DNA of 64,000 nt, from NCBI RefSeq assembly GCF_021545845.1, contig NZ_CP088923.1:2480001-2544000 (forward strand), written 5' to 3'. Made by a program: the position numbers and the translations under genes. Numbering within the stretch: the stretch's first letter is position 1; the number at the start of each line of letters is the position of its first letter. This DNA comes from Rhodanobacter thiooxydans. GTDB lineage: Bacteria > Pseudomonadota > Gammaproteobacteria > Xanthomonadales > Rhodanobacteraceae. Shown here piece after piece: positions 46,662 through 49,854 of this stretch. The notes under the pieces are model-generated. The model searched no databases, was not told the DNA's origin, and saw only the letters and a list, made by a program, of their open reading frames with translations.

Positions 46662-48695
<2,034 letters not shown>

Positions 48696-48743
48696 ACGCC
48701 GACACGCCGGCACCGTTGCCATCGGGCAGCGGTGCCGGTCATG

Positions 48744-48885
48744 CAAAAGAAAGCGCCCCGCAGGGAAGACGCATCAACATGGGTTCAGGGGGGGAGTTGA
48801 ACCAGATGTTGTATTTAGCGTCGCTGCGGGGCGAGGGCCGCCGCCACTAGGGGGGAGGGGAAGTGGCGGGACGGAAGTGATTTTA
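48744..48885 (-). ncRNA. Candidate small RNA with C-rich loops (sX13-like)
   Basis: On the minus strand the order is: a possible -10 box TAAAAT (48880-48885); a hairpin with 8-base stem (48862-48869 with 48841-48848) and a 13-base loop of almost only C and T; then a long nested hairpin with four successive stems (48824-48833/48754-48763, 48818-48822/48768-48772, 48806-48811/48775-48780, 48798-48803/48782-48787) whose apical loop is ACTCCCCCCC; then the T-rich tail CTTTCTTTT. Size would be about 130 nt. C-rich loops that pair with G-rich ribosome sites are known from Xanthomonas sX13. Expression and homology are not shown here. Confidence 0.6.
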
Positions 48886-48945
48886 TGATCGACGGAATAA
48901 AGTATCTAATATATATTTAGAACGTTATTTATTTCATATCACTAT

Positions 48946-49854
48946 ATGTTTGATCTTCGCCAATTACGCTACTTCGTCGCTGTCGCGGAAGAACTGAGCT
49001 TCACCCGCGCCGCGCTGAGACTGCACCTTTCCCAGCCTCCGCTATCGCAACAGATCCAGTCGTTGGAGCAGGATCTGGGCGTGCGCCTGCTGGAACGCAC
49101 CAAACGCAGCGTGGCGCTCACCGAACCCGGCCGGGTGTTCCTTGAACAGGCCCGGCAGATCCTGGCCAAGGTGGATGAGGCGCGCAACCAGACGGTGGCC
49201 GCTGCCGCGGGTTACACCGGCCAGTTGCGGCTGGCCTACACCGTTTCGGTCTCGTTCCACCCGGTCATGCCACGGACCTTGCTGCGTTTTGGCCAGATCG
49301 CTCCCGACGTGCGCCTGCAACTGAACGAGATGTACACCGAACCGCAGTTTGCAGCCCTGCTCGCCGGCAGGATCGACGTCGGCTTTGTCCGCGACGAGCC
49401 GGTGCACCCGCACGCCCGCGACCTGCGCTTCAGCGTGATCGACCGCGAACCGCTGCTGCTTGCGCTGCCCGCGGGCCATCCGCTGGCTGGCCGCAGCCGC
49501 CTGCACCTGGCCGAAGTGGCCGGCGACGCGTTCGTGTCGCAACCGCGCGAACTTGCCGCCACGCTCTATGACCGGCTGGTGAAACTGGCGACGCAGGCCG
49601 GCTTCCAGCCGACGATCACCCAGCACGCCCAGCAGATCACCGGCCTGCTGGCCCTGGTGGCCGCCGGCTTGGGGCTGGCCCTGGTGCCGGCCAGCATGCG
49701 TGCCGTGCGCCTGGTCGGGGTTTGCTACGTGCCGCTGGAAGATTCCGATGCCTATCTGTTGCTGGCCGTGGCTTCCAGGACCGACGACCATTCCCCCGCC
49801 CTGCAGCAATTCCTGGCCACGGTGGCGCAAACCGCCCTCACGCCGGACTTGTGA
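48946..49854 (+). CDS. LysR-family transcriptional regulator
   Basis: A 302-residue LysR regulator: winged HTH at the N-terminus (MFDLRQLRYFVAVAEELSF, HLSQPPLSQQIQSLEQDLGV) and the effector-binding periplasmic-protein-like domain, with YTVSVSFHPVMP and the LLALPAGHPLAGRSRLHLAE stretch. BenM/CatR-like in tone. No purine-rich ribosome site precedes the ATG; the leader is AT-rich. The target is unknown; the adjacent genes are fadH (same strand upstream) and rpmJ. Confidence 0.85.
   Translation: MFDLRQLRYFVAVAEELSFTRAALRLHLSQPPLSQQIQSLEQDLGVRLLERTKRSVALTEPGRVFLEQARQILAKVDEARNQTVAAAAGYTGQLRLAYTVSVSFHPVMPRTLLRFGQIAPDVRLQLNEMYTEPQFAALLAGRIDVGFVRDEPVHPHARDLRFSVIDREPLLLALPAGHPLAGRSRLHLAEVAGDAFVSQPRELAATLYDRLVKLATQAGFQPTITQHAQQITGLLALVAAGLGLALVPASMRAVRLVGVCYVPLEDSDAYLLLAVASRTDDHSPALQQFLATVAQTALTPDL

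Follow-up and report, generated by a model that had tools for sequence, protein, structure and literature searches.

In Rhodanobacter thiooxydans, the gap between fadH and a divergent lysR gene holds a member of a conserved small RNA family that is absent from Rfam 15 and from the open-licence literature searched, and that is of the same kind as the known small RNAs lying divergent from LysR-type genes. Comparison with related genomes strongly supports the predicted gene, which lies on the minus strand; its structure is under selection, its occurrence is tied by computation to that of the LysR gene, and it is distinct from the C-loop RNA sX13 of Xanthomonas, a homologue of which coexists in the same genome. 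We consider it probable that the RNA, about 128 nt long, is under the control of LysR and acts in trans, and that its C-rich loops would repress mRNAs at G-rich ribosome-binding sites.

The locus and its predicted features

The window (the whole stretch of DNA analysed, 64,000 nucleotides) contains a gap of 250 bases between fadH and lysR (48696-48945), in which the original prediction had placed a candidate small RNA; its coordinates and the features that it gave for gap and flanks proved correct apart from small details. The locus is laid out as follows (positions in the window):

46677..48695, plus strand: gene for a FadH/Old Yellow Enzyme-type NADH:flavin oxidoreductase (PF00724), convergent with the RNA
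48745..48873, minus strand: predicted small RNA gene, about 128 nt, with a predicted start near 48873-48872 and an end in the T tail; based on fold z-score, covariation and the kept -10 element and T tail
48745..48752, minus strand: T-rich tail, putative intrinsic terminator, kept in relatives
48754..48833, minus strand: hairpin 2, four nested stems, in register, with small bulges
48797-48788, minus strand: apical loop of hairpin 2, ACUCCCCCCC
48837..48872, minus strand: hairpin 1, an 11-pair stem with the loop UCCCCUCCCCCCU at 48861-48849
48880..48885, minus strand: -10 element TAAAAT, from promoter scan and conservation
48906..48920, minus strand: conserved AT box CTAAATATATATTAG, a near-palindrome whose centre lies about 41 bases before the predicted start
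48931..48945, minus strand: second, weaker dyad region, centred at about -66, next to the lysR start codon
48946..49854, plus strand: gene for a LysR-type regulator, divergent from the RNA, with the Pfam domains HTH_1 (PF00126) and LysR_substrate (PF03466)

A consensus scan of positions 48600-49050 returned three promoter-like sites (two on the minus and one on the plus strand) against 0.2 expected. The single terminator-like site that it returned, with 0.5 expected, lies on the minus strand and is a local alternative stem and not the basal stem of hairpin 2, which would be the terminator stem preceding the T tail. At one site against 0.5 expected the scan alone is therefore no evidence, and the terminator is credible by conservation only: at least six T are present within the final 10 bases in 86 of 89 relatives, so that the T-rich tail with which the RNA had been proposed to end is both present (48752-48745) and conserved. 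TAAAAT, likewise noted earlier upstream of the minus-strand hairpins, is found at 48885-48880, and in all 59 relatives the best hexamer over six neighbouring offsets matches TATAAT at 4-6 of 6 positions. The -35 hexamer of the RNA is poor (TAGATA, with a 17-base spacer; 9 of 12 matches counting the -10 element). We rejected a small-protein reading of the element, as 21 of 59 RNAs contain no ATG and 53 of 59 no complete internal ATG frame. Directly after fadH we also noticed a second inverted repeat (CCGGCACCG...CGGTGCCGG, 48707-48738), which lacks a plus-strand T tail; several relatives carry similar repeats of differing sequence after the RNA.

Fold, covariation and distribution of the RNA

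On the minus strand the sequence folds at -56.6 kcal/mol, compared to a mean of -29.9 kcal/mol (sd 2.9) for shuffled sequences, which corresponds to a z-score of -9.2 with none of 200 shuffles folding as low. The plus strand also folds better than expected by chance (z -5.6; 0 of 200 shuffles), because an inverted repeat must fold on both strands. The two minus-strand hairpins with nearly pure C/T loops that had been described from the letters are borne out by this fold, loop 2 containing one A among its C and T. As for the 'four nested perfect stems' of hairpin 2, four stems do lie in register, but they are interrupted by interior loops and thus not perfect; the stem of hairpin 1 contains one bulge and one G-U pair. 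Folded singly, each of the 59 relatives forms exactly two hairpins, whose C/T loops are 6-16 bases long and held open by strong stems. Across these relatives the loops are composed of 76.5% C, 17.4% T, 4.2% A and 1.9% G, and CCCC is present in 117 of the 118 loops. Decoys of the CsrB/RsmZ type carry GGA in their loops; such a decoy was rejected here, given loops with 1.9% G and no GGA.

Compensatory changes in related genomes, which the original prediction had named as support, occur in all four helices. They were examined in a structure-blind MAFFT alignment of 59 sequences, the members being relatives below 95% identity; 89 of 90 loci were used, with L079, at a contig end, left out. Measured against the fold of the window RNA, 25 of 40 pairs contain double changes, and 91.1% of the cells pair, as opposed to 33-50% with the partners slid by 1-3 columns, a control in which the tested structure is taken from one of the aligned sequences. 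The number of double-changed cells is 182 (57.7 in shuffles). Further pair types, a weaker measure of covariation, amount to 54 versus 47.8 and were reached by 8 of 500 shuffles. For hairpin 1 alone, we found double changes in 9 of 11 pairs and 92.6% of the cells paired (31-62% when slid), the further pair types being unremarkable (reached by 136 of 500 shuffles). Independently, RNAalifold gave 23 pairs, 14 of them with double changes. The stems thus undergo compensatory change, whereas the C-richness of the loops is preserved; the structure of the RNA is under selection.

By DNA search the RNA is present in 43 of 45 genomes of the genus, the own genome (that of the window) included. Within the family, Rhodanobacteraceae, the same search matched 124 of 233 genomes, two of them weakly. 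A covariance model of the window RNA, built from the 59 relatives, matched 146 of the 233 family genomes at E 0.1. Two of the matches, in small-genome relatives (G054, E 0.0011; G056, E 0.04), turned out on inspection to be terminator-like hairpins without the C-loop layout and were removed before the co-occurrence count given below, leaving 144. When 398 genomes sampled evenly from the order were searched, the model matched 97, of which 96 belong to the same family; the sole match outside it (G347, E 0.002) is spurious, again a terminator-like hairpin without the C-loop layout. The own genome contains a single copy (140.8 bits; next best 18.1), and the plasmid collection gave no match to the RNA. 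A pattern scan of named genomes met at least 118 stretches; of the 80 loci listed from it, 42 were confirmed by the model, the other 38 being taken as chance pattern matches. Names among the 42 confirmed loci listed are Rhodanobacter, Dyella, Luteibacter, Frateuria and Fulvimonas; four MAGs with vaguer or unlikely names are also included. One record, named Candidatus Eremiobacteraeota (L142), carries the RNA at 110.8 bits, and this assembly is probably mis-binned or mis-named. Two genomes of the genus with neither RNA nor LysR (G027, G035) gave no fadH match at E 1e-150 either, so that these two assemblies may lack the locus altogether.

The divergent LysR gene and the shared promoter

The same LysR gene lies divergent from the RNA in 89 of 89 loci, with 62-100% identity, a constant partner that the original prediction had overlooked. 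The lysR start is 73 bases from the RNA in the window; across the loci its first codon lies 69-127 bases before the first base of the model, and 70-73 bases before it in 74 of 89. fadH is convergent downstream in 80 of the 89 loci and was not found within the stretch examined at nine (eight Luteibacter-type loci and L088); it is probably a neighbour and not part of the RNA-LysR unit. We counted LysR at E 1e-70, a threshold fixed beforehand, over the 233 family genomes: 142 contain both RNA and LysR, 2 the RNA only, 3 LysR only and 86 neither. Both genes are thus present in 142 of the 147 genomes with either (Fisher p 1.8e-57, a value that ignores shared ancestry), which ties the RNA to the LysR gene.

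We inspected the five exceptions. In G030 (L040) lysR is cut by the contig end, its first 130 residues being in place, and in G189 the RNA is present, scoring 56.7 bits when the stretch is searched alone. G183 and G184 possess, opposite lysR, a C-rich and strongly folding stretch with several C-run loops, on which the model gives 10.9 bits (L307, E 0.37) or no match (L306); as the model fails there, kinship is by position and composition only, and the two stretches are possibly a further form of the RNA family. Finally, G136 (L309) contains the RNA at 52.5 bits, with fadH about 1 kb downstream and a methionine sulfoxide reductase gene (PF01625, 2175-2738, minus strand) between them, and no such LysR was found within 2 kb upstream of the RNA or genome-wide at E 1e-70. 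This genome shows that the RNA is able to exist without the LysR partner.

On the LysR protein the best NCBIfam scores are those of AlsR and HcaR, followed by PRK09986 and BenM, all below their cut-offs, and the OxyR and GcvA models score lower than these four. Its best relatives in the PDB are 7w06, BenM and CatM, with the RipR ligand domain further down. BenM and CatM are regulators that sense organic acids or aromatic compounds. From the resemblance to AlsR, HcaR, BenM and CatM, the LysR protein would be of this organic-acid/aromatic-sensing type.

Within the promoter region shared by the two genes, an 11-base A/T box (AAATATATATT and close forms) occurs at -46 to -44 in all 59 sequences, positions being counted from the first G of the hairpin, about the predicted start. 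The best dyad centre is at -40.5 (score 0.76) and the best away from the box at about -66 (0.49), with a median of 0.25; dyad scores are inflated by AT-richness, the start site is a predicted one and the -66 dyad is weak. Conservation near -76 is partly due to the lysR start codon. We infer that the AT box at 48906..48920 is the LysR-binding site, and the dyad at 48931..48945 may provide a second LysR contact. In G136, without LysR, the AT box is absent too (one genome); with both missing, G136 is an exception of the kind that binding of LysR to the box predicts.

The arrangement resembles that of GcvA-GcvB and OxyR-OxyS, in which a small RNA lies divergent from a LysR-type gene across a short shared promoter (73 bases here); as in those systems the divergent pair is conserved, in 89 of 89 loci, although the transcription of our RNA is a prediction. 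In the excerpt of PMC5002191, the inverted repeats are centred at -65 and -43 in gcvA-gcvB and lie at -66, -44 and -35 in oxyR-oxyS. Dyads near -65 and -43 compare with about -66 and about -41 here, relative to a predicted start, and by analogy this agreement in spacing is suggestive.

We searched for known counterparts of the RNA itself. Nowhere in the window does an Rfam 15 family attain its gathering score, so the comparison with Rfam that had been proposed as a check leaves the RNA without an Rfam counterpart. At a relaxed threshold, positions 48600-49050 gave four weak matches, three of them to implausible families, and neither GcvB nor OxyS is among them; these two RNAs bear no sequence relation to the window RNA. 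The pairing region of GcvB is G/U-rich, whereas the loops of the window RNA are C-rich. One of the weak matches, on hairpin 1, is to alpha-r14 (RF02344) of alphaproteobacteria, which shares C-rich loop motifs of the CUCCUCC type; however, it scores 15.9 bits (E 0.97) against a gathering score of 58.8 and covers one hairpin only. AbcR1, too, adjoins a LysR-type gene (LsrB/VtlR), by which it is controlled; according to the excerpted text of PMC8844928, however, AbcR1/2 are an alphaproteobacterial tandem pair that binds Hfq, and the window RNA has no Rfam match to them. In the open-licence literature (titles and abstract openings) we found no description of the RNA for Rhodanobacter or Rhodanobacteraceae, none for LysR genes with a divergent small RNA in Xanthomonadales or for sX13 in Rhodanobacter, none among the matches listed for small RNAs of Dyella, Luteibacter and Frateuria, and nothing on it for small RNAs of Lysobacter and Stenotrophomonas. 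Nor did the matches listed include work on regulatory RNA in Rhodanobacter and its relatives.

Relation to sX13 and possible mode of action

Whether the RNA is sX13 or a separate RNA had been left open by the original prediction; the data show that it is separate. In the excerpt of PMC3771888, sX13 is a 115-nt RNA that is always found downstream of polA, it has three stems with loops of 4C, 4C and 5C, and its repression of targets needs the C motifs of the RNA and G-rich motifs near the target starts, Hfq being dispensable. The window RNA is similarly small and structured, with more than one apical loop rich in C and fit to pair with G-rich sites of mRNAs, and the CCCC found in 117 of 118 loops recalls the 4C/5C motifs, a resemblance and not descent. 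It is flanked by lysR and fadH, though, whereas sX13 lies downstream of polA, and it forms two hairpins in 59 of 59 relatives in place of three C-loop stems. The sX13 model (RF02232) gave no match in 48600-49050 at E up to 10; on the own genome it gave 13 matches at this threshold, the window locus not being among them. The RNA beside polA in the own genome (L287, G000:C1:371770-371882, minus strand), by contrast, matches RF02232 over its full length with 39.5 bits (gathering score 50), and a polA-side locus of the neighbouring family (L271) reaches 124.5 bits; these two are the polA-side loci that were compared with Rfam. As L287 stays below the gathering score and similar RNAs occur elsewhere in the family, the Rfam cut-off may miss those too. 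Four further loci that hold a relative of the window RNA or occupy its place (L056, L306, L309, L310) had no Rfam match at E 0.1.

polA was found in 116 of 121 genomes, and for 37, among them the own genome, we read the DNA that lies downstream of it. A C-loop RNA with three larger hairpins is found beside polA in both the neighbouring family and the family of the window. With a crude pattern it could be extracted at 28 of the 37 loci, and 25 of these 28 RNAs were aligned; of the other nine loci, some show the RNA on visual inspection or have it cut off, and at several it was not seen. That the window RNA could be the local counterpart of sX13, moved away from the polA locus, would fit its loop style, and the window-RNA model does give weak scores on 18 of 31 polA-side loci (10.8-27.3 bits, E up to 1), among them 15.7 bits on that of the own genome. 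Given the separate full-length sX13 match downstream of polA, the lack of any at the window locus and the two hairpins instead of three, we nevertheless find such a move scarcely credible. The weak scores leave room for a remote common origin of both RNAs by ancient duplication, although convergence of C loops and of a GGGGC terminator stem is the simpler reading. Another sX13-like C-loop RNA was noted at L356:1248-1359, minus strand (G000:C1:3058847-3058958; 33.2 bits); its end is followed on that strand, after about 65 bases, by a nicotinate phosphoribosyltransferase gene, and it could be a further small RNA or a leader.

Open C/T loops and the lack of a conserved reading frame indicate that the RNA pairs with G-rich RNA, a composition most often found at ribosome-binding sites. 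We therefore propose a stand-alone RNA of about 128 nt that would be transcribed from the minus strand and intrinsically terminated, and that would act in trans, its two exposed C-rich loops pairing with G-rich stretches at or near ribosome-binding sites and thereby lowering the translation of a set of mRNAs. LysR would bind the AT-rich dyads that are conserved in the 73 bases of promoter shared by the two genes and, when bound to a ligand, would probably activate the RNA and repress itself, a circuit expected by analogy with GcvA-GcvB; direction of control and ligand are guesses.

Other readings of the locus were weighed against this one. The RNA might be a genuine C-loop small RNA for which LysR is a mere neighbour, sharing a compact promoter without exerting control; short divergent promoters may be preserved simply since both genes need them, and G136 keeps the RNA without LysR. 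However, LysR is kept in all 89 loci while fadH was not found in nine, the AT box keeps its position throughout the 59 sequences while LysR identity falls to 62%, and the box is absent where LysR is absent, so that we regard this as unlikely, though deserving attention. Somewhat less likely still is that the C loops titrate another RNA or a protein, or bind a C-binding protein, with no silencing of mRNAs: pure C/T loops could well serve as decoys, but in sX13, which has been studied best among the C-loop RNAs of the order, the loops serve to repress mRNAs that carry G-rich motifs, as stated in the excerpt of PMC3771888. Very improbable, in our view, is a transcribed element on the plus strand (the fadH mRNA tail or an antisense RNA) to which the minus-strand signals would be incidental. 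It could draw on the stable plus-strand fold (z -5.6) and on the one promoter-like site of three on that strand; the -10 element, the T tail and the conservation of the loops, however, fit the minus strand, and the RNA is retained at the eight Luteibacter-type loci, where no fadH was found.

More tentatively, one LysR sensor and the two-loop C-rich RNA hard-wired to it may form an undescribed regulatory module that broadly slows the translation of mRNAs whose ribosome-binding sites are G-rich, parallel to sX13. If so, Rhodanobacter, Dyella, Luteibacter and Frateuria would possess a brake module in a role similar to that of GcvA-GcvB in enteric bacteria, and an sX13-style C-loop RNA would operate at a second, regulator-coupled locus. 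With the RNA in 144 of 233 family genomes and a fixed regulator, the locus offers a testable circuit of sensor, promoter box, RNA and predicted site type, for which G136, having the RNA without regulator and without box, is a natural control.

Searching the own genome for sites of the predicted type, we found GGGGGAG 3-9 bases before an ATG 43 times, compared to 2 times for the reversed pattern, an indecisive excess because ordinary Shine-Dalgarno selection would give it as well; one of the 43 sites is the antisense strand of the window RNA. We read 30 of the 43, and in 10 of these 30 fewer than 60 codons follow the ATG. Ten sites with long frames were checked in Pfam and include genes for HlyD-type, DoxX and lumazine-binding (riboflavin-synthase-type) proteins and a response regulator. 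All ten are leads and not targets, the idea of targets being drawn from loop composition and analogy. Also among the ten, and preceding envelope and uptake genes, are candidate sites before a DUF1302 protein (leader GGGGGAGGGGG), a TonB-dependent receptor plug protein and an amino-acid permease.
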